From Bacteroidota bacterium (lineage in GTDB: Bacteria; Bacteroidota; Bacteroidia; Flavobacteriales_D; Crocinitomicaceae), in the NCBI GenBank assembly GCA_016192075.1, contig JACPUU010000008.1:62001-126000 (forward strand): 64,000 nucleotides of DNA, given 5' to 3'. The position numbers and the translations under genes are program-made. Below are positions 1 to 12,900 of this stretch, in pieces (positions within the stretch are counted from its first letter, which is position 1; each line of letters starts with the position of its first letter). The notes beneath the pieces are model-generated. The model made no database searches. It was not told where the DNA came from and saw only the letters and a list, made by a program, of their open reading frames with translations.

Positions 1-269
1 AATAATTTTCAAAAAAAGCTTGCATGCTGTTTCTTTTATGCTTTACCTTTGGCCCCGGAATATTCTTCCCAAAATTAAGAAAAGGAGGATCACCATGACA
101 GAGCGCACTCTTATATCACCTATGCCACTCACTGCGTAAAACGCGGCTCTGCATTTCTTTGTATTTCATTTACGATTTAACGAATTCAGACCGCGGAAGA
201 TTTCACGTTTCGTGTTCTTGTTTACGCTTTGCCGGCAATCTCACTGATTTCTAACAAAACAAAATAACA

Positions 270-1022
270 ATGAACACAAACGATTGGGCGTATTACGCCC
301 ATTGCAGTCGTTTGAAAACAAAACGAACCAAAAAACGATTGCAGAAAAAAGATCAGGAAAAACAACTGATCAGCATGGCCAAAGAACTCTTTGCTCTTTA
401 CGAAAAGCAGCGGAATCGTGAATACGAAAAACTGGAGAACCCTTATCAAAAAGGATGGCTTCGGACCTTTGTTCTACGCGATGAAACCACGCTTTTACCA
501 ACGGCTACTGTTTTTGAAAAAATACTGAATGTCATTAATACCATTCAGTACAGCGAACGGCGCGATTTTAAAATAAAACGCCGGCGTTTCAGAAAACGAG
601 TCTATGTGAAAAAGCCACAGGAACTGACGGTTTTGAATGAATTGCAGCTTAACCGTTTGTTCAATGAAAAAGAACGGAACTATTTTGAACGGGTTGAGCA
701 TTTTGATCAAAAAAGGCGCACCACCGTGGTGCGGTATCATTTTATGCAACCCTGGCGATTCAGGTTGAAAGTGAGTCCTTACATGATCACACATGTGCGG
801 ATTGTAGACGCCGAATCAACACAAAAAATTTCAGAAATCCGTTCACGGTTGCTGGGTCAAAACCTGGAGGCACGCATGTGGAAAATGCTCTATGGCTATG
901 CTGCAAACAAACGATGGAGGTGTGAACCACCTCCCAGGTACAAACATTTTATTAAATCAGAGCCCGTTCACAAACTAAAGCGGGACTATGAAACAGAAAA
1001 ATTATATGGGAATAAAAATTAA
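270..1022 (+). CDS. Basic protein of unknown function, first gene of the rtcB-prfH unit
   Basis: I do not recognise a domain in this 250-residue protein. It is strongly basic, with Lys/Arg-rich stretches near residues 15-30, 100-115 and 205-245. It has no signal peptide or membrane segment, so a cytoplasmic, possibly nucleic-acid-binding protein is a fair inference. The ATG at 270 follows an A-rich leader with no Shine-Dalgarno, as is usual in Bacteroidota. Its last codons overlap the start of the rtcB-like gene, which implies translational coupling and a shared role with the RNA ligase and PrfH. The C-terminal Lys/Arg-rich tail could contact RNA. No function is claimed. Confidence 0.75.
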   Translation: MNTNDWAYYAHCSRLKTKRTKKRLQKKDQEKQLISMAKELFALYEKQRNREYEKLENPYQKGWLRTFVLRDETTLLPTATVFEKILNVINTIQYSERRDFKIKRRRFRKRVYVKKPQELTVLNELQLNRLFNEKERNYFERVEHFDQKRRTTVVRYHFMQPWRFRLKVSPYMITHVRIVDAESTQKISEIRSRLLGQNLEARMWKMLYGYAANKRWRCEPPPRYKHFIKSEPVHKLKRDYETEKLYGNKN

Positions 1023-2409
1023 AGGAAAAGAATTGTACAACATTGGTTATGACAATGACACGTCACGATCAATGGCCGTAGAAACGGCATCGCGCTTTTT
1101 CAAGCACGAAACCAGGGCAGACATTCTGAAACTATTTGAATCCGTTCGGCTTAATCCACACACTTACCTTGAGGATTACCGACTCTTTAAACTTGCCAAT
1201 ACGTTCATTGAAAAGGTGATTGAAAAACCCTTTACAGTATATGAGCTGCATGAAAAAGCCGAACACTTTAAAATTTACGGCCATGCTTTTATTGAAGAAG
1301 AGGCTAAAAAACAAATGGAAATGGCTATGCGTTTACCAGTGAGTAAAAAAGGGGCTCTGATGCCCGATGCACACAGTGGTTTCGGTTTACCAATTGGCGG
1401 TGTGCTGGCAACTGAAAATGCGGTTATACCCTATGGCGTTGGTGTAGACATCGGGTGCAGAATGGCCCTGTCCATTTATGATCTGCCTGAAAAATACATC
1501 CAGCGCAATGCATTTGAAATGAAACGCGTGCTGAAAGAATTTACACATTTTGGTATGGAAGGGAATTTAGATTTTAAGCAAGAGCATGATGTACTGGACC
1601 GCTCCGAATTTCAACTCACTGATTTGTTGCGCAAGTTACATGGCAAAGCAGCCAAACAATTAGGTTCATCAGGCAGTGGCAATCACTTTGTGGAATTTGG
1701 TGTGATTGATTTGTATGAACAGAATACGCTGACCATGCCTGCGGGAAAATACGTGGCGCTTTTATCCCATTCCGGATCACGGGGATTGGGAGCTAATGTT
1801 GCACAACATTACACCAATCTGGCCATGGAAATCTGCAAACTACCGCGTGAAGCCAAACACATGGCCTGGCTTGACCTGAATTCCGCCGAAGGGCAGGAAT
1901 ACTGGCTGAGTATGAACCTGGCCGGTGATTACGCCAGAGCCTGTCATGACCGCATTCATTTAAATCTCTCCAAAAATCTTGGAATAAAACCGGTTTGTAA
2001 AATTGAAAATCATCACAATTTTGCCTGGAAAGAAAAAGATGAAAACGGAAACGACATCATTGTTCACCGCAAAGGAGCTACTCCGGCACACAAAGGCGAA
2101 CTGGGAATTATTCCCGGAAGCATGACCAAAGCTGGTTACCTGGTCAGCGGCAAAGGAAATCCGGATTCGCTGAATTCAGCATCACACGGCGCAGGACGAA
2201 GCATGTCACGTAATAAAGCAAAGAACTCGTTTACGGTTTCGTCTTTCAAAAAGATGGTTGAAAATGCAGGCGTATCGCTGATTGGCGGAAGTCCGGAAGA
2301 ATGCCCGCTCGCCTATAAAGACATTGAAGAAGTGATGGTGGCGCAGCAAAACCTGGTAGAAGTTCACGGGAAATTTATTCCCAAACTAGTACGCATGAAT
2401 AAAGAATAA
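1006..2409 (+). CDS. rtcB: RtcB-family RNA ligase (RtcB2 type)
   Basis: 467 residues. RtcB ligases join RNA ends with 2',3'-cyclic phosphate or 3'-phosphate to 5'-OH, using GTP and Mn2+. Visible family motifs are MPDAHSGFGLPIGG (about 119-132), GVDIGCRM with the metal-binding Cys151, SGSGNHFVEFG with His227, SHSGSRG with His255, the NHHNFAW pair at 336-337, and SHGAGRSMSR, whose His394 is the expected guanylylated residue. All catalytic positions appear intact. An in-frame ATG at 988 exists, but the ATG at 1006 gives the usual MG-x-K-GK start. The frame overlaps the upstream gene by 17 nt, and prfH begins 1 nt after its stop. The pairing with PrfH marks the RtcB2 subgroup, which is reported to repair 16S rRNA cut in the decoding centre (recalled, not checked). 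Confidence 0.95.
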   Translation: MGIKIKGKELYNIGYDNDTSRSMAVETASRFFKHETRADILKLFESVRLNPHTYLEDYRLFKLANTFIEKVIEKPFTVYELHEKAEHFKIYGHAFIEEEAKKQMEMAMRLPVSKKGALMPDAHSGFGLPIGGVLATENAVIPYGVGVDIGCRMALSIYDLPEKYIQRNAFEMKRVLKEFTHFGMEGNLDFKQEHDVLDRSEFQLTDLLRKLHGKAAKQLGSSGSGNHFVEFGVIDLYEQNTLTMPAGKYVALLSHSGSRGLGANVAQHYTNLAMEICKLPREAKHMAWLDLNSAEGQEYWLSMNLAGDYARACHDRIHLNLSKNLGIKPVCKIENHHNFAWKEKDENGNDIIVHRKGATPAHKGELGIIPGSMTKAGYLVSGKGNPDSLNSASHGAGRSMSRNKAKNSFTVSSFKKMVENAGVSLIGGSPEECPLAYKDIEEVMVAQQNLVEVHGKFIPKLVRMNKE

Positions 2410-2410
2410 T

Positions 2411-3028
2411 ATGAATAAAAAAATAATACAATTAACTTCTGGTAAAGGACCCGCTGAATGTGAGCGGGTTGTTTACCTGTTGTTGGAAAAACTGAAAAAA
2501 GAACTTTCAGAAAAACAACTAACGGTTGAAGAAATGGAATTGATCAGCGGTAAACAAGACCGCACGTATTTGTCTGCCGTGATTAAAATTACAGGTGAGC
2601 ATGTCACAGATTTTTGTTTATCCTGAGAAGGCAGTATTCTATGGATTGGCCAAAGCCCTTTCCGTCCGTTTCACAAACGCAAAAACTGGTTTGTGGGCAT
2701 AGCCTGTTTCGATATTCCGGAAAAACAAAGCTGGCGTGAACGTGATTTTGCCTATCAGACACTCCGTGCATCTGGCCCGGGCGGACAAAATGTCAATAAA
2801 GTGGAATCTGCCGTCAGGGCAACTCATGTGCCTACAGGACTTTCAGCTACGGCATCGGACGAACGGTCACAACTGCAAAACAAAAAAATTGCACGGGAAA
2901 AACTCGTTCAAAAACTGACCTGGCTGGATATTGAAAACGGTAAAACCCAGCAACAAAAACAGTGGATGGAACACCAAACGCTGGAACGAGGAAATCCAGT
3001 GAAGACAATTCGTGAAAAATTGGACTAG
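2411..3028 (+). pseudogene. prfH: Peptide chain release factor H, interrupted by in-frame TGA (nonsense or recoded)
   Basis: If the TGA at 2624-2626 (codon 72) is read through, this frame encodes a 205-residue protein, the normal PrfH length. The first 71 codons carry the family start (ITSGKGPAE-like). After the stop the same frame continues with EGSILWIGQSPFRP, HKRKNWF, the catalytic SGPGGQNVNK (GGQ about 124-126) and a C-terminal ERGNP. In E. coli PrfH, as I recall it, the interrupted position is Trp (S-W-C-G-T-I-Q-W), so TGG to TGA is the simplest explanation. Both halves are otherwise well conserved with no frameshift, so the lesion is either very recent, a sequencing error, or a functional recoding site. 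A GTG at 2693 could start only a 111-residue GGQ fragment. PrfH releases ribosomes stalled by decoding-centre damage so that RtcB can reseal the rRNA. Confidence 0.85.
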
Positions 3029-3042
3029 TTTATTCTATAAAA

Positions 3043-3120
3043 GAACACGGATGACACAGATGTAAAAGATTTTCACTGATCAAATCCGTTTTATCCGTCC
3101 AATCCGTGTTATCTGTGTTC
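3043..3120. repeat. Imperfect inverted repeat between convergent units
   Basis: The arms GAACACGGATGACACAGAT and ATCCGTGTTATCTGTGTTC are imperfect inverted repeats of CACGGAT / CACAGAT words around a ~40-nt centre. Such GTGTTATCCGTG-rich palindromes are common dispersed intergenic elements in Bacteroidota and other phyla (from memory). It separates prfH from the converging small-RNA array and could act as a transcription barrier. Confidence 0.5.
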
Positions 3121-3200
3121 CGATTCGTTCACTTCATCAGACTGAAGAGCATCGAAACAAAGCGTGCCTGATATTTTCTCTATTTGATTTTGCATGATAG

Positions 3201-3338
3201 TTGAACAGGCAACAACCTGCAGGAGACTATTTTCCTTTGCTCTGACTGCTGAGCTATACCGGCGTTGCCGGTAGCCGGATTCGCACCGGCGACCTAAGGG
3301 TTCTTAACGAAGTAACTCCGGCATACGACACTGTTCAA
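3201..3338 (-). ncRNA. Y-RNA-like small RNA 5, with circularly permuted tRNA-like module
   Basis: The outer helix TTGAACAG / CTGTTCAA (3338-3331 with 3208-3201) is perfect. Next come the conserved TGTCGTAT, a helix CCGGAG with CTCC (plus GG), and the conserved TTACTTCG (3315-3308). The interior has tRNA parts in permuted order. First is a T-arm GCCGG-TGCGAAT-CCGGC (3290-3274). Then comes a 7-bp acceptor stem TACCGGC / GCCGGTA closed by the 3-nt loop AAC. It is followed by TA and a D-arm GCTC-AGCAGTCA-GAGC (3254-3239). Short complementary words CCTT and AAGG could form the anticodon-stem position that joins the module to the Ro-binding stem. This agrees with bacterial YrlA RNAs, known to carry a tRNA-like module. 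Bounds are the helix ends; true 5' and 3' ends are unknown. Confidence 0.8.
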
Positions 3339-3350
3339 TGTCAATAAAAC

Positions 3351-3427
3351 AAATACAAGCAATACTCAAAAAAAGTCTGTTTTGGATCGGTTTCAGCGAA
3401 GTAACTTTTTTCTACGGCATTATATTT
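3351..3427 (-). ncRNA. Y-RNA-like small RNA 4 (short hairpin form)
   Basis: The outer helix AAATATAA / TTGTATTT (one G-U) encloses the conserved TGCCGTAG (3419-3412), an inner helix AAAAAAG / CTTTTTT, and TTACTTCG (3404-3397) at the start of a ~29-nt loop. The 3' internal loop ends in TTGC, as in units 3 and 5. There is no tRNA-like module. It shares motif order and spacing with the other four units while its helix sequences differ, which is what a conserved RNA structure looks like. Confidence 0.75.
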
Positions 3428-3428
3428 T

Positions 3429-3500
3429 AAAAGGCAATAACCAAATAAGCTTTTACATAGAAAGTTTGGTATCGAAGTAAGCGTATTTAACGGCACTTTT
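3429..3500 (-). ncRNA. Y-RNA-like small RNA 3 (short hairpin form)
   Basis: The outer helix AAAAG / CTTTT (3500-3496 with 3433-3429) is followed by TGCCGTT, then an inner helix AAATACGC / GCTTATTT with one mismatch, then TTACTTCG (3480-3473) opening a ~30-nt loop. The 3' internal loop ends TTGC. It begins immediately after the CCA end of the tRNA-like element at 3503, so the two may be cut from one transcript. No tRNA-like part is visible. The outer helix is short and A/T-only apart from one G-C pair, so this is the weakest of the five. Confidence 0.65.
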
Positions 3501-3502
3501 TT

Positions 3503-3627
3503 TGGCGGAAACGAAAGGAATCGAACCTTTATCTCTGGATATTAATGAGTAGTCTTTTTTTCAATGGTCTCATTGAATTCGCAAGCTCATTTCAGTCCAG
3601 CGCATTGACCACGTTTGCTACATTTCC
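3503..3627 (-). ncRNA. tRNA-like RNA with encoded CCA and a ~49-nt hairpin in the anticodon arm
   Basis: This reads as a canonical cloverleaf in normal order. It has a 7-bp acceptor GGAAATG / CGTTTCC (one G-U), a D-arm with GCA/TGC stem and GG in the loop (3618-3602), an anticodon stem CTGGA / TCCAG, a 4-nt variable loop, T-arm AAAGG-TTCGATT-CCTTT, discriminator G and encoded CCA at 3505-3503. Between the anticodon-stem strands are 56 nt instead of 7. They fold as AATGAG / CTCATT and then TTCAATG-AGAC-CATTGAA. If the loop began as C-T-GAA the anticodon would be GAA (Phe), but G73 is not the usual Phe discriminator. The window's five normal tRNAs lack encoded CCA, so this one is distinct. It lies inside the Y-RNA array next to an RNA ligase locus. 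It could be an intron-bearing tRNA, a tRNA mimic or a decoy. Confidence 0.75.
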
Positions 3628-3630
3628 AAA

Positions 3631-3750
3631 AATGAAAGAGTAAAAGGCGGCAGCGGTATCAAACACATCAACAATCCAAACGGATTGTGACGGGCAGGAC
3701 TCGAACCTGCTTAGACCAAGAAGTAACGCTGTCCTACGACATCTTTCATT
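3631..3750 (-). ncRNA. Y-RNA-like small RNA 2, with T-arm and capped acceptor-like hairpin
   Basis: The outer helix AATGAAAGA / TCTTTCATT (3750-3742 with 3639-3631) is perfect. It is followed by TGTCGTAG (3741-3734), the inner helix CAGCG / CGCTG, and TTACTTCT (one change from the shared TTACTTCG). Inside is a textbook T-arm GCAGG-TTCGAGT-CCTGC (3710-3694). After it comes an 11-bp helix with one bulge, CGTCA+CAATCC / GGATTG+TGATG, capped by GTTT. This resembles a T-arm stacked on an acceptor stem closed by a loop, the same permuted order as unit 5, but the D-arm is reduced or missing. Confidence 0.8.
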
Positions 3751-3765
3751 GTTTTTCAAAGCGTA

Positions 3766-3894
3766 TTGTCAAAAGCAACAGGCGATTCAGGATCGGGGAT
3801 TCGCACTGAGGATTTGCACCTCTTCCTGACTTTTACATCAGGACCCTTCCCCTTCAATGGAGCGAAGTAACCTGTTTCTACGGCATTTTAACAA
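3766..3894 (-). ncRNA. Y-RNA-like small RNA 1, with branched interior
   Basis: The outer helix TTGTTAAAA / TTTTGACAA (one G-U; 3894-3886 with 3774-3766) precedes the conserved TGCCGTAG (3885-3878), inner helix AACAGG / CCTGTT, and TTACTTCG (3870-3863). The interior can close with GGGGA / TCCCC around two hairpins: TCCTGA-TGTAAAAG-TCAGGA and GAGG-TGCAAAT-CCTC. The second has a T-loop-like heptamer. It begins ~20 nt after the rsr terminator on the same strand, so it has its own promoter or depends on read-through. Confidence 0.75.
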
Positions 3895-3914
3895 TTTTCA
3901 AAGAACGTCTTTTC

Positions 3915-3944
3915 AAAACCCCTCTGCCCGGATTGACAGAGGGG
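3915..3944 (-). terminator. Rho-independent terminator of rsr
   Basis: On the - strand, CCCCTCTG and CAGAGGGG form a perfect 8-bp stem around a 10-nt loop, followed by TTTTG. It lies 12 nt past the rsr stop and before the first Y-RNA-like unit. Confidence 0.8.
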
Positions 3945-3956
3945 GCCTGTATGAAC

Positions 3957-5492
3957 CTAGTTCAATTCAATCTGTTTAATTTTTGCAATGGCGCCGGAAC
4001 CGTTTTCAATGGCCTCCAACACGTCAAATACTTTGTCTGACCAGCCGGCAATCAGAAACACGTCCTGACGCTTAATGCTCAACGGCGCATGACCGTATCC
4101 GGCCAGGTCAAAGAGATACAATTTGGCATTTGGCGCTATCTTTTTGTAGGCTTTCCAGGCTCGTTCCACGCTTGAACCGATCATCATGTTGCTGTACAAC
4201 TGGCAGTCAGTAAACAACATCACTTTATCCATCACCACACCACGGCTGATCAGGTCATCAATCACTTTATGCCCGTTGGTGGCATACCCTACCTCACCTT
4301 CGCGTTTGTAGTATTCTTCAACATTAGCCAGTACATTGCGTTGTGGCATGTTGATGATTTTCCAGGTATCGCCAAACATACCGCTCACAACCCGTTTGCA
4401 TTTTGACTGCATCAGCATTCCCAGCATCAACCCGATATCATACATCAGTATTTTGCTTTTTTCGGAGATTGGTTTTTGCATCGATCCGGAAACGTCACAC
4501 GCAATTAATACTGCCGTATTTTCATCAAAGCCTTTCATGTTTTTCACACTCAGTTCAACTGCCTCTTCCAACGCATACAGGATAGATGAAGTAAATTCAG
4601 ACTGCAGCACTTTAATCTCGCGGTAAGCCGCCAGGAAACGGAATGGCAATTGTTTTGAATTGGCAACCGCAGTTACATCACGCAGCGTGTTACACACTTT
4701 CATCACCTGTGCTGAACCCACTCCTGCTTCCAGGATGTTGCGCAGGTTTCGCAACAGCGCCATGTAACCGATTTTTCCGCTGTCAATCAGTTCTTCCCAT
4801 TTCAATTTAAATGCTTCAGAACGTGCATGGGCCGTTTCAAATTTTTGCTGACCCAATGCTGACAATTCAGTTTCCCAGGTATAAGGCACAGCCAGTTCAC
4901 CGTTCACTATTTTGTTGAACAAGGCCTGCTGCGCTTCATCTTTGGCCTTTGGGTGCACCAGAAACAAGGCATCACGCAATTTGATTTCTGCCGCGCGGTT
5001 GTATTTCGCAAACTGGTATTCGTCAAATTTATTAAACGCTTCAGCCAATCCTTTTTGCACCTGTTTAGACAAACGGTTCAGTTTTTTTGTTCCTGTACGG
5101 GCGTTCGCCACCTGATAGTATGCCAGCAATTCCGTGATTTCATCAGCCCGGCGAACAACACCGGAAACTGTTTTTCCAACCACTCCGTTCACCGATTTTT
5201 TATCTGCTGAAATGGCTTTTGCCAATTCTACAGCCAACACCAGCGGTACGCTGCGCAGCTGCATTTGGGTGCGGGCATACACAGCCAGTTTCCCCACAAA
5301 ACCCGGATCGTTTTTAGAAATCAATTCCCGCAAACGTTTCAACCGGTCTTCCTGCTTTTCGTAGAACATATTGCTCAGGCCGGCAGTTACAGTAGCAGCA
5401 TACAGCTCCATTTCAGGAGTCAGTGTAAACGCTTTTTCACCCTCGTAATTGGTTACTACCGCTTCTTTCTTTTTAAAGATGTTGAATTTCAT
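3957..5492 (-). CDS. rsr: Ro60-related TROVE/vWA protein (Rsr)
   Basis: 511 residues. Ro60 proteins are ring-shaped RNA-binding proteins that hold Y RNAs on the outer surface and bind 3' ends of misfolded RNAs in the central hole. In bacteria they act with Y RNAs and exonucleases in rRNA maturation and RNA decay. Residues ~15-320 are helical repeat-like and fit a TROVE module (for example residues 60-95 and 165-180). The C-terminal third is a von Willebrand A domain with MIDAS DVSGS (Asp333-x-Ser-x-Ser) and a later LFTDCQ segment. No signal peptide is present. The gene is followed by a terminator and five Y-RNA-like units on the same strand, and faces a divergent WYL regulator. The neighbouring convergent rtcB-prfH unit matches the known genetic link of Rsr, Y RNAs and RtcB (for example Salmonella rsr-yrlBA-rtcBA). 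Confidence 0.95.
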   Translation of the reverse strand: MKFNIFKKKEAVVTNYEGEKAFTLTPEMELYAATVTAGLSNMFYEKQEDRLKRLRELISKNDPGFVGKLAVYARTQMQLRSVPLVLAVELAKAISADKKSVNGVVGKTVSGVVRRADEITELLAYYQVANARTGTKKLNRLSKQVQKGLAEAFNKFDEYQFAKYNRAAEIKLRDALFLVHPKAKDEAQQALFNKIVNGELAVPYTWETELSALGQQKFETAHARSEAFKLKWEELIDSGKIGYMALLRNLRNILEAGVGSAQVMKVCNTLRDVTAVANSKQLPFRFLAAYREIKVLQSEFTSSILYALEEAVELSVKNMKGFDENTAVLIACDVSGSMQKPISEKSKILMYDIGLMLGMLMQSKCKRVVSGMFGDTWKIINMPQRNVLANVEEYYKREGEVGYATNGHKVIDDLISRGVVMDKVMLFTDCQLYSNMMIGSSVERAWKAYKKIAPNAKLYLFDLAGYGHAPLSIKRQDVFLIAGWSDKVFDVLEAIENGSGAIAKIKQIELN

Positions 5493-5566
5493 AATCCGGT
5501 TGTTTTTAGTTTATGGGCCGATTGATTTTCTGTTTGTTCTTTCGACAGGACAAAGTTGTACCACCA

Positions 5567-5588
5567 CTACGCAGTAGAATTGCGCAGT
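5567..5588. promoter_or_regulatory. Operator-like repeat, copy 1 (rsr side)
   Basis: This 22-bp element starts CTACGCA and ends ATTGCGCAGT on the + strand. On the other strand it contains two direct half-sites, ACTGCGCA and ACTGCGTA, 13 nt apart. It lies just upstream of a CAACTTTG box at 5551-5544, a near match to the Bacteroidota -7 consensus for rsr, so it would cover the -33 region. It is a likely site for the adjacent WYL regulator (inference). Confidence 0.5.
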
Positions 5589-5680
5589 AAAATTATTTTT
5601 TGATTTTTAGTGCCGTTTCATTCGAAAACAACTGAAAACAGGGCACAAAAAATTTTTAAAAAATTCCGATTAAATTCAAT

Positions 5681-5702
5681 CTACGCAAATACATTGCGCA
5701 GT
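5681..5702. promoter_or_regulatory. Operator-like repeat, copy 2 (WYL gene side)
   Basis: Second copy of the same 22-bp element, with CTACGCA at the left and ATTGCGCAGT at the right and only 4 differences from copy 1 (17 of the first 18 shared positions lie in the two blocks and central TA). A TTG within it (5694-5696) sits 21 nt before TACCTTGG at 5718-5725, so it would overlap the -33 element of the WYL gene promoter. This suggests autoregulation. Confidence 0.5.
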
Positions 5703-5752
5703 TTTCAGAAAATTTTATACCTTGGTTGTTTGCCATTTTAATTTTCACCTGT

Positions 5753-6778
5753 ATGCCCATTAATAAACTTGCACTTATTCGCTACAAAACCATTGACAGC
5801 TGTTTGCAAAATCGTTTCCGCAAATGGACACTGGAAGACCTGATAGAAGCTGTATCAGATGCCCTGTATGAATACGAAGGAATCACCAGTGGTGTGAGCA
5901 AACGTACCATTCAGCTGGATATTCAGAACATGCGCAGTGAAAAACTGGGTTACAATGCGCCCATTGTTGTTACAGATAAAAAATACTACAGCTATGAAGA
6001 AAAAGAGTATAGTATTACCAACACACCCGTGACAGAACAAGACCTGAGCACACTCAACGAAGTACTCGCTGTTTTAAAACAATTCAAGGGGTTTGGCTAT
6101 TTCCAGGAACTGAATGGTATGGTAACCAAACTTGAAGATAAATTATACAAACAGCAGCACCGCGGAAAATCGTACATTGATTTTGAAAAGAACGAATTGC
6201 TGAAGGGACTCACGCACATTGATCCGCTGCACAAGGCTATCATGCAGAAAAAGACCATAGAAATTACCTACCAGTCATTCAAAGCATCTAAACCACAACA
6301 GATTATTTTTTACCCGTATTTACTGAAAGAATACCGGAATCGCTGGTTTTTACTGGGGATTCAAAAACGCGGCAACGTAGTTTTAATACTGGCATTAGAC
6401 CGCATTGCATCATTCAAAGAACTTGCCGGTGAAAAATTTCAGAAACCACAATTTGATGTCTTTACCTATTTTGATGATGTGATTGGTGTTTCGAAAATGC
6501 CAAATCAAATTCCACAAACCATTGTATTTAAAATTTCACCCGGGAATGTGCCTTACGTAATCACCAAACCCATACACCCGTCACAAAAAATAATGAAAGA
6601 AGAAAAAGACGGAACCATTTTTTCGATTGACGTGATCTGGAATTTTGAACTGGAACGCGAGTTACTGGGTTTTGGAGAACAGATAAAAGTGCTTGCCCCG
6701 CGCAGACTTCAAAGCAAAATCAAATCCTGTGTGCGTCGTGCATTTGAAAACTATGAAAAACAAAATGCGGAATTATAA
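5753..6778 (+). CDS. WYL-domain transcriptional regulator
   Basis: 341 residues starting from the ATG at 5753; an upstream TTG in frame at 5726 would overlap the probable -7 box and is unlikely. The N-terminus has a winged-helix region (about 1-60, with SKRTIQLDIQNMR as the recognition segment). The middle contains the WYL core (ITYQSF about 190, YPYLLKEYRNRWFLLG about 205-220, LDRI about 235). The C-terminus resembles a WCX extension. WYL proteins sense ligands, often nucleic acids or nucleotides, and commonly control DNA-damage, phage-defence or RNA-repair genes. It is divergent from rsr with two copies of an operator-like repeat between them, so control of rsr and itself is the natural inference. 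Confidence 0.9.
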   Translation: MPINKLALIRYKTIDSCLQNRFRKWTLEDLIEAVSDALYEYEGITSGVSKRTIQLDIQNMRSEKLGYNAPIVVTDKKYYSYEEKEYSITNTPVTEQDLSTLNEVLAVLKQFKGFGYFQELNGMVTKLEDKLYKQQHRGKSYIDFEKNELLKGLTHIDPLHKAIMQKKTIEITYQSFKASKPQQIIFYPYLLKEYRNRWFLLGIQKRGNVVLILALDRIASFKELAGEKFQKPQFDVFTYFDDVIGVSKMPNQIPQTIVFKISPGNVPYVITKPIHPSQKIMKEEKDGTIFSIDVIWNFELERELLGFGEQIKVLAPRRLQSKIKSCVRRAFENYEKQNAEL

Positions 6779-9993: not shown

Positions 9994-12900
9994 TTATTGC
10001 TTAACCAATTTGCTATAAAGGGTTCCGTTTTCAGTTGTCAGCTGAATTGTATAAACACCGCGGGCAAAGCCCGAACAATCCACTGCCAGTGTGTTTGAAG
10101 CATTGTTTGTACGGTAAACCAGCTGTCCGGATAAATCATAAATTCTTAACTCAGAAATAACACTTGAATACATCAGCTGTACCATACCTGATGTTGGATT
10201 AGGGTAAATACTCAGCGCTGTTTTTTCAACCGGTTCAATGCCCAGATCTGTTGGTCCACCAGGCATATTGATAGCTGATTTATTGGAGCGTGATGAGTTG
10301 TGATCCTGCACTTTGAAAGCTGTACATACAGCTGGTGGTAAAACTTCAACCACGTAAACCAGGTTACTGTCACTTGGTGGTGTCAAATCAGTATATGAAA
10401 TATTTAATGATCCAACTGAGTCAATGACCATCCAACCGGTTGATGGATGATAACGATGAATATAATAGGTTTCGTAGGCAAATCCGTTGTAATGATCCCA
10501 GATCAGGTTTACCACGCCGCCTACACCCAGGTTTGATGTGAGGTGTATCGTTTTATGCGGATCACTGAGCTCAGCAATATTATTGCAATCATCTACGGCC
10601 GCAACTTTGTATCTCCATGAACGGATTGCCGGATTGGAGGCATAGTCATAATACTCACTGATGCTGTCAGCACTTTGATTTGCTACCAAAAAGTATAAGC
10701 CGCTCTCTGAACTTTCTTTGTAAATGTTGTATGAAACCACATCCGGTGAATTTACCGGATTCCAAACCACAATATTGGAATTGGTCAGTGTGTCTACCGT
10801 AACCATACAAATGCTGGTTTGATCAGGCGCCGACATTTCTACATCAAAGAACATGTATGAACTGCAACCGTCAGCACCTTCAACCTCTACGGTATATTCA
10901 CCCGGTAATACACCGGTTAAATCTTCAGCCGCTGTAGCATTGGACCAGGTGTAGCTAAATGGTGAGGTACCTCCAATGGTACTGATGTAAACACCACTCA
11001 GGTCACCCGAGCAGGTAGCATCTGTAATCGAATCGGTCACAATAACCGGTCCGTTTTGTTCATTCACTACAAATTCTTTTTGAATGAGGCAGGTATTGCC
11101 ATCAATAACCATTAGTTCATATACCCCTGGGGCAAGACCAGAAGTGACATTTGATGATCCGGTTGTATTAGGCCAGATGTAGTTGAATGGCGGGGTGCCG
11201 TTATTAATAACCGCGGTTGCCTCACCATTCACCCCGTTACAGGTAGCAGGCTGTGAATAGATAGAAATAACAGATTCTTCCGGTTCTTGAATGGTGAAAC
11301 TTTCAGCAGCAAAACAACCGTTGGCATCTGTCACAAAAATTTCATACGGGCCGGCTTCCAGGTTAAAAATATCTTCCAGCACATCTCCGTTTGACCAGGA
11401 AATGACATACGGCGGAGCACCACCTAAAACTGAAACAGAGATAACGCCATTATCTTGTCCGAAACATTCATTGTGTACAATATTCTCTAACAAAATAACC
11501 GGACCCTGATCATCACTCACGGCTGCAATGGCCTCTGTCGAACAGCCGTTGTTATCTGTAACCGAAACAACATAAATACCAGAGCCCAGGCTGTCAGCCA
11601 GTACTGACTGGTCACCATTGGTCCACGAGTAACTGTATGGCTGTGTACCACCCGATGCCGATACAATGGCAACACCGTTATTAATACCACAATCAGAATT
11701 GGCTACCGTATTTGTAATCAGGTTTATTTCTGAATCAGGTATAACGATGGTTTCATTGTTAATATCCGAGTTTCCGCATGCATTAAAACCGTTTACTGTG
11801 ATTGTATAACTTCCGTCATTATCGTACACATGTTCAACGGGACTGAGTGAGCTATACGTAATCAGATTTCCGGATCCATCTCCAAAATCCCACATGTAAG
11901 AGCCACCGCCTACCGCATAGAATGTAACGGGCTGGCCTTCGCAGGTAATTTCTGCCTCATCGTGCCAGAAAAAGACATCTGCCGGTATTCCGCTGCCGGG
12001 ACCATCTACCACAACGGTAAGGGTTGTGTCAAATGAATTGCCACAGGCGTTTGTAATTGTGAGCACAGCATTGTATGTCCCAGGTGCAGAATAGGCGTGG
12101 AAGCCAACAGCTATAGGCTGTCCTTCTACATAAATTAACTGATCACTGCTGCCGGTATTACCATCTCCAAAATCCCAGGTGAAAGTTCCTATACCTGCAG
12201 GTACAATTGCAAAATAAAGATTGTCACCTACACAACCCGGTGACTGAACACTAATCTCTGTTGAAGGACTGTATGGGCTTGCGGTATTGTCAATGGCAAT
12301 GTTGTGCGTAACAGTGCTGTCACTGCCGCAGCCATTCAATGCCACCAGTGTAATGGTGTAGTTGCCGGGTGTATCGTAAATATGTGACGCCGTAGGATCA
12401 GTAGAAACAGCTGAACCGTCTCCAAAATCCCAAACCACGCTAATGTCATCACCTTCATCTACCGACATGTAAACCGTAGATCCGGGACAAGCCTCATCTG
12501 CATAAACATTCCAGTCAAGGTTGGTAAGCGGAAGGTTATTTACAATGTCTATCGACGAAAACAATGTTGTATCTGCACCGCAGCCGTTTGTAATAGTTAC
12601 CGAATAGTTATAGGTTCCGGTATTCTGATACGGGTGATTTGCCTGCTCGGCGCTGGTGGTAAATCCATCTCCAAAACTCCAGTCATATTGTGAGAAACCG
12701 CTTGCCGCATAAAACTGAACGTCATTTTGCGGACACGATGGGTCAGGGTTTGCGCCCATGTATACATTGGATGCGATTGGTAAATTATCAAGTACATAAA
12801 CCGTATCATACAAGGTGGCAGTGCTGCCGCAGGCATTTTGTACAATGGCATAAACGGGGTATGTACCGGTGCTGGTATATTCATGCGAGTAACCCTCAGT

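Follow-up and report, generated by a model that had tools for sequence, protein, structure and literature searches.

What are the five related elements that stand in a row downstream of rsr, the gene for a Ro60 (TROVE) protein, in a Bacteroidota genome of 4.65 Mb, and what would they do there? The window, ie the whole stretch of DNA that was analysed, is 64,000 nt long and covers positions 62,001-126,000 of the forward strand of contig JACPUU010000008.1 (assembly GCA_016192075.1). A preliminary description of this DNA had reported five Y-RNA-like units on the minus strand, with the motifs TGYCGT and TTACTTC and an outer helix, and all five were found again at the same window positions. Judged from sequence comparison, the five are very probably Y RNA genes of a Bacteroidota clade of Rsr (the protein encoded by rsr) which has a basal, presumably Ro60-binding, stem of its own. 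The units are listed below with their scores against R1, a covariance model made from 45 short units, 40 of which come from named rsr loci. The named loci are the best 80 rsr loci from a scan of named genomes, with genera including Flavobacterium, Pedobacter, Chryseobacterium and Pontibacter.

3765..3895, minus strand: U1, a long unit with a GC-rich branched head; core motif 3864-3885; 45.9 bits, E 1.5e-10, outside the R1 training set; fits the stem geometry.
3630..3751, minus strand: U2, a long unit with a T-arm plus hairpin; core motif 3720-3741; 43.4 bits, E 7.9e-10, outside the training set.
3424..3505, minus strand: U3, a short unit with a simple loop; core motif 3474-3495; 59.3 bits in the genome search; in training alignment A2.
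3349..3429, minus strand: U4, a short unit with a simple loop; core motif 3398-3419; 66.1 bits; in training alignment A2.
3199..3340, minus strand: U5, a long unit with a permuted tRNA-like head at 3233-3298; core motif 3309-3330; 44.7 bits, E 3.3e-10, outside the training set.

Together the units span 3199-3895 and share TGYCGT-N9-TTACTTC at identical spacing. That pattern occurs five times in the whole genome, each time at a window unit, and the reversed pattern occurs once; beyond the array neither pattern nor model found further copies in the window genome. U3 and U4 overlap by 6 nt, and U3 is missing from the table of R1 matches in the window. The contents of the heads vary as had been described, from the T-arm and hairpin of U2 and the permuted tRNA-like head of U5 to the simple loops of U3 and U4, to which the branched head of U1 can be added. 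The U5 head matches positions 23-87 of the Rfam family YrlA at 32.9 bits, below the YrlA threshold of 69. Scans for sigma-70 promoters and for terminators were uninformative.

The stem was studied in a set of units gathered from many loci, in which 242 loose units were reduced to 240 distinct and then to 233 strict ones from 87 sources (5 from the window, 211 from named loci and 17 from anonymous loci). Loci L067-L071 were left out of this set, and four of these five are genomes also represented among the named loci. The layout is an outer helix, a single bulged U, and a G-C and a Y-R pair that close on TNRC, followed by CGUA opposite an internal loop. CGUA, on the 5' side, faces 4-6 nt plus a U and an N on the 3' side. 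Next comes an inner helix of 8 bp, and after it an unpaired UUACUUCG leads into the variable head. When a pairing matrix was drawn up without an assumed register, the diagonal of the inner helix was conspicuous, 8 bp long and at a fixed place, and the spacing of the two motifs is constant for that reason. The stem geometry was chosen from the same data after this matrix. A first helix search with free offsets had given only a moderate separation (median 26 for real units vs 22 for swapped ones). Two other arrangements were tried and given up. An inner helix directly adjoining the 3' motif was weak, reaching at least 12 points in 27% of cases vs 11% of swapped ones, and the matrix showed an offset of 4-6 nt; the idea that ACU-AGU prolongs the inner helix was dropped because AGU precedes the 3' strand of that helix in just 40 of 163 rows.

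In this one register the inner helices of the window, with pairs counted by hand, are GAAACAGG/CCTGAATC in U1 (6 of 8 pairs), GGACAGCG/CGCTGCCG in U2 (6 of 8), AAATACGC/GCTTATTT in U3 (7 of 8), GAAAAAAG/CTTTTTTT in U4 (8 of 8, one of them G-T) and TGCCGGAG/CTCCTGCA in U5 (7 of 8). The preliminary description was right that an inner helix is present in all five units, but its registers give way to the fixed one of 8 bp, and the U1 helix that it named, AACAGG/CCTGTT, overlaps the 3' motif. U1 is itself ambiguous, since single-sequence folding favours AACAGG/CCTGTT over the family register.

The same description had noted GC just before the 3' outer strand in four of the five units. The observation holds, but the rule behind it is TNRC, with its R paired to the Y of TGY. 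U2, the exception to the GC rule, pairs TGT with TTAC (its single-sequence fold has a z of -3.28) and so reveals the covariation of TGY with TNRC. When the outer 3' strand was located by pairing alone, it was preceded by TTGC (71), TTAC (41), TCGC (15), TAAC (10) or TAGC (6) in 143 of the 187 units that reached the pairing score; with swapped downstream sequences, TTGC was seen 27 times and TTAC 17 times in 316. TGC goes with TTGC and TGT with TTAC: among 218 units the Y-R position is C-G in 135, T-A in 68, T-G in 13 and something else in two (A-G and C-A, one each). The mutual information at this position has a z of 60.7, the runner-up reaching 7.5. In U5 the pair is a U-G wobble, and one viral unit (L256 alignment) has G with C. 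Nothing like the covariation of the Y-R pair was seen between CGUA and the 3' loop.

The whole geometry was fitted by 220 of the 233 units, vs 208 of 1165 controls in which downstream sequences had been swapped between sources. As 18% of the swapped controls pass, a single fit is weak and the strength lies in the set. RNAalifold, given 45 of the 53 short units (near-duplicates left out, the stem aligned nearly gap-free) and no structure, returned both helices, and for 14 of the 15 pairs at least one sequence has both partners changed. The covariation score of the named structure on these 45 units was 0.627 vs 0.204 when shuffled, and at most 0.204 when the partner strand was slid; the units had been selected by pairing, which favours the share of paired cells and less so the kinds of change. 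For 148 distinct fitted rows the score was 0.639 vs 0.214, in an alignment that leans to the structure by construction. The shared RNA fold, proposed earlier from covariation within the five units, is supported in the larger set.

The units keep close company with rsr. In 77 of the 80 named loci the strand of rsr carries the motif pair with a spacer of 7-12 nt, and R1 gave 267 matches in 79 of the 80. All 267 are on the rsr strand, 263 downstream of rsr and 4 upstream (all in L151), and the sole miss is L166, whose sequence stops 204 nt past rsr. R1 recovered U1, U2 and U5, on which it was not trained, at E values of 1.5e-10 to 7.9e-10, and among the units of several cousins that the strict pattern missed it caught variants such as TGCTGT...ATACTTC. 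A covariance search without hits near other TROVE genes had been named beforehand as a result that would refute the shared fold, and the proposal passed this check. A model made from the five window units alone (R2, with the stem register borrowed from the family analysis) gave 25 matches at E <= 0.01; they come from 15 of the 29 anonymous rsr loci, and all have the orientation of rsr.

Whole genomes gave a similar picture. Rsr homologues were found in 30 of the 395 genomes of a phylum sample. When these 30 TROVE genomes were searched whole, 19 had an R1 match at E <= 0.1; 53 of the 58 matches adjoin rsr, and the other five score 23.0-28.6 bits. Within the order, TROVE was found in one of 249 genomes, the window's own, and the motif pattern in 67 of the 249, scattered outside the window genome; one of these scattered cases, in G171, turned out to be a true array without rsr (described below). 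R1, run with stricter filters on 120 genomes of the order, gave only six weak matches (20.5-27.6 bits) outside the window genome. In 29 loci of the order that carry the motif pair by pattern, R2 matched this orphan array (L014) at 25.6 and 15.6 bits and one other locus at 14.4 bits.

The type of stem follows the type of Rsr. Among the 30 TROVE genomes, 23 encode an Rsr at least 53% identical to that of the window; 21 of these have clear model or strict-pattern units beside rsr, and in another (G318) units beside rsr were found by a looser pattern and by eye. The Rsr of the other seven is at most 35% identical. In none of the seven does R1 score more than 26 bits, and next to the rsr gene of three of them lie stems of the classical YrlA type, with 62.8-73.2 bits. 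Fisher's test of stem against Rsr type, which ignores kinship, gives 5e-7 if the remaining genome with a close Rsr (G347) is taken as a carrier and approximately 4e-6 if it is taken as lacking units (23 over C(30,8), by hand). Such a dependence would be expected of a protein-binding site that diverges together with its protein, and it suggests that Rsr binds the stem.

The stem could instead be the site for another protein of the island, with rsr a mere neighbour; candidates would be PNPase, a nuclease that processes RNA, or a translation factor able to recognise the tRNA-like head. This would suit the existence of an array without rsr (in G171, described below) and the position of UUACUUCG, at the head side of the stem and kept in short units that have no tRNA mimic. 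We nevertheless consider it quite unlikely, as the stem type changes with the Rsr type and the other genes of the window vary across the 80 named loci: within flanks of at most 7 kb (some contigs are shorter), rtcB is present in 41, a WYL regulator in 56 and PrfH in one. Rsr is shared by all of them by construction, the loci having been fetched by Rsr. Moreover, when R1 was run on the 120 genomes of the order, strong matches came from the window genome alone, and G171 was not among the matches.

The interior of the units is bimodal in length, so that long and short units can be told apart. Long heads (n = 154) have a T-arm followed by a D-arm in 63 cases, a T-arm only in 50, a D-arm only in 10 and neither in 31; a D-arm never comes first, so that where both arms are present the order is that of a circularly permuted tRNA. 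Neither arm is present in 54 of 61 short units, and the interior is 32 nt or less in 53 units. Both kinds occur together in 44 of 78 loci (77 named loci and the window). Gaps between neighbouring units are 20 nt or less in 70 of 134 cases, and units so close together are probably cut from one transcript. The arrays extend to viral sequences: 20 IMG/VR contigs, free virus and provirus counted alike, encode an Rsr relative 41-59% identical to that of the window, and 14 of them have R1 matches, or 12 of 18 if the pair L250 and L251, which are the same, and the pair L256 and L257, which share sequence, each count as one contig. All 27 viral matches lie on the rsr strand, either upstream or downstream of rsr.

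Close packing, together with the ordinary tRNAs that adjoin units in several loci, would also be compatible with units that act as processing or maturation signals (eg RNase sites) in a long tRNA-carrying transcript, the released heads being the functional product. We think this very unlikely, because the 53 units with the shortest interiors have nothing evident to release, ARAGORN found no tRNA in 41 of the 60 named loci scanned (of the 80), and the stem is better conserved than the heads. That the units are DNA-level elements, either sites of recombination or members of a family of repeats with palindromic arms that mimic RNA helices, is extremely improbable: tandem copies with variable interiors do resemble cassette arrays, but integron-like and other DNA repeats were rejected because G-U pairs are tolerated (the 13 T-G cases at the Y-R position and the GU cells in the covariation tables), the 5' and 3' loops are asymmetric, every R1 match in the named loci has the orientation of rsr, and neither the pattern nor the model turned up copies in the rest of the window genome.

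Several observations nevertheless weigh against the reading of the units as Y RNAs that serve Rsr. One is the orphan array of three units in G171, a genome of the window's own family (L240 5825-6130; 54.7, 48.6 and 42.0 bits). By eye it sits between mutS-like and secreted-protein-like genes, there is no Rsr in the 16 kb analysed there, and the G171 genome has no TROVE match. The stem can therefore exist without rsr, and this array could be a remnant or the partner of a different protein. In G347, whose Rsr is close, R1 gave a single match, of 29.9 bits and some 1.5 kb upstream of rsr, and TACTTC is absent from the strand of rsr across the 9.5 kb searched. Thirteen of the 233 strict units do not fit the geometry. 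The single-sequence folds of U3 and U4 are no better than shuffles (z of -0.49 and -0.64), and for U1 and U5 the fold of minimum energy misses the family inner helix. The 31 long heads with neither arm lack a tRNA-like arm by the search patterns used. Finally, rtcB is present in only about half of the named loci, and PrfH in a single one.

According to the sections of PMC8394870 and PMC4726728 that deal with them, bacterial Y RNAs as a class lie beside rsr, have paired ends and carry a modular head, often a tRNA mimic. The units described here lie beside rsr, in 79 of 80 named loci and with the G171 array as the exception; their ends pair, with a conserved internal loop and bulge; and their heads are modular and often tRNA mimics. 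With YrlA (RF02553; Salmonella, mycobacteria) they share multiple copies beside rsr, a basal stem formed by paired ends, a permuted-tRNA head and, past an inner helix, a stretch that resembles ACUWC (ACUAC in YrlA, UUACUUC in the window family). The YrlA consensus differs, being GCGA-AUGC-7 bp-CUAC ... ACUUG-UCGC, whereas the window family has an outer helix without conserved sequence, the U bulge, the GY/RC pairs, CGUA, 8 bp, UUACUUC and TNRC, and unlike YrlA it includes short units without a tRNA mimic. No match reached the YrlA gathering score of 69 bits in the window (32.9 bits being the best) or in the 24 of the 80 named loci that were scanned, and only two of the 30 TROVE genomes exceeded it, both with a distant Rsr. 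Tandem classical YrlA-type units (GCGAATGC, about 7 nt, then GACTAC or alike) were also seen beside a distant rsr in another genome of the phylum (G477, L093 6700-7650).

The vertebrate Y RNA family RF00019 was absent from the Rfam matches of the window. The Ro60 site of vertebrate Y RNAs, as the relevant part of PMC4726728 describes it, has a similar plan of a helix, one bulged 5' pyrimidine, a short pairing and a longer 3' strand. About 3 extra nucleotides on the 3' strand are common to both stems (7 vs 4 in the commonest form of the window family). The sequences differ, and the resemblance is one of plan.

The units lie between genes transcribed from the opposite strand, rtcB and prfH on one side and, beyond rsr, a WYL regulator on the other. 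The remaining features are as follows.

3957..5492, minus strand: rsr, a Ro60/TROVE protein of 511 aa with a vWA-like C-terminal part (PF05731, E 4.6e-30).
3503..3627, minus strand: tRNA-Phe(GAA) with a 49-nt insert after A37 of the anticodon loop and an encoded CCA (Rfam tRNA, 52.9 bits; ARAGORN intron mode).
988..2409, plus strand: rtcB, an RNA ligase (PF01139, E 1.6e-78).
2411..3028, plus strand: prfH, peptide chain release factor H (TIGR03072), a single frame broken by an in-frame TGA at 2624-2626.
5756..6778, plus strand: a WYL-domain regulator, divergent from rsr (PF13280, PF25583).

PF05731 and structure matches over most of its length place the window Rsr among proteins with a TROVE ring plus vWA domain; against vWA_Ro60 itself it scores 20.5 bits, under the family cut-off of 27.7. 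Its AlphaFold2 model (mean pLDDT 80) matches 9l5y (Ro60 of Thermus phage phiLo), 2i91 and 1yvp (Ro complexes) and 2nvo (Deinococcus Rsr). The closest rsr relatives among named records are almost all from Bacteroidota. TIGR03072 hits both halves of prfH, each under its cut-off, and W stands at the position of the TGA in the sole homologue found among the 80 loci; prfH is either a broken gene or a release-factor gene with an internal stop that is read through. In a related locus (L160 8552-8629, minus strand) the Rfam Flavo-1 RNA, at 77.8 bits, lies directly past rsr on the opposite strand.

The Salmonella rsr-yrlBA-rtcBA RNA-repair operon, in the account given in part of PMC7790460, likewise has Y RNAs next to the genes of a Ro60 protein and RtcB. 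Unlike that operon, the window has no RtcA or RtcR among the six proteins scanned (270-6775), with a WYL regulator and PrfH instead, and rtcB is near rsr in just 41 of 80 related loci. A passage of the same paper states that by 2020 the function of bacterial Ro60 and Y RNA had been studied only in Deinococcus. Among the literature matches listed, in a search that covered titles and abstract openings, none dealt with Y RNAs of Bacteroidota.

The insert-bearing tRNA-Phe, which the preliminary description did not include, is not a unit; it sits between U2 and U3, near rtcB. With the insert removed, its anticodon loop would be the same as in the ordinary tRNA-Phe of this genome (L210). Nuclear and archaeal tRNA introns usually sit at the site where the insert stands. 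ARAGORN in intron mode gave 46 calls in loci L067-L175, many of them by eye joins of neighbouring tRNAs or units. Rfam alignments in L096 (9717-9859 and 10004-10089) revealed a tRNA-Thr(TGT) whose anticodon loop is enlarged by an insertion of about 70 nt and another tRNA whose anticodon loop is a long hairpin. A script search for enlarged loops missed both of these, produced one artefact (two joined tRNAs in L162), found a tRNA with a 30-nt anticodon loop in L157 (1395-1487) and found none in 63 control loci. Between 10 and 18 tRNA genes lie near rsr and Y-RNA arrays in L096, L098, L099, L109, L162, L174 and L252, and tRNA-Lys(TTT) adjoins a unit in L096, L097, L099, L101, L109, L250 and L252. 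The L096 island also encodes reverse transcriptase-like, Thg1-like, RNA ligase (PF09414) and Band_7 proteins (26-4363 and 11726-12868).

If the units are Y RNAs, they would be expressed as part of a longer transcript of the rsr strand, cut from it and then bound by Rsr. The protein would hold the basal stem, reading the bulge and the internal loop and, one helix up, UUACUUCG. By analogy with DrY and YrlA, the head might gate the central hole of Rsr or tether a second protein, for instance PNPase. Where RtcB or a different RNA ligase is encoded alongside, the particle would take part in RNA repair by sorting damaged tRNA or rRNA. A bolder proposal, which taken as a whole we regard as rather unlikely, is that an entire Ro60 clade has its own Y-RNA stem, on long tRNA-mimic and short headless RNAs, in repair islands of bacteria and viruses that hold reserve tRNAs, some with an insert at 37/38. 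In this scheme the sorting of cleaved tRNAs would fall to the Y-RNA/Rsr particle and their rejoining to RtcB or a different ligase; the insert-bearing tRNAs would be reserves which the nuclease does not see, spliced into use, or decoys. This would amount to tRNA splicing in bacteria.

The units appear to be an overlooked branch of bacterial Y RNAs, found beside rsr in dozens of related bacteria and in some viral sequences. They add a large and sharply defined group, with a fixed putative recognition stem, named genera to work in and a covariance model with which further members can be found. The short units, which have the stem and no tRNA mimic, make the role of each part of a Y RNA directly testable. 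Clean mutants can be made at the one covarying Y-R pair and in the constant distance of 8 bp to UUACUUCG. The islands, those on viral contigs included, would tie Ro60 to the repair of tRNA and rRNA.
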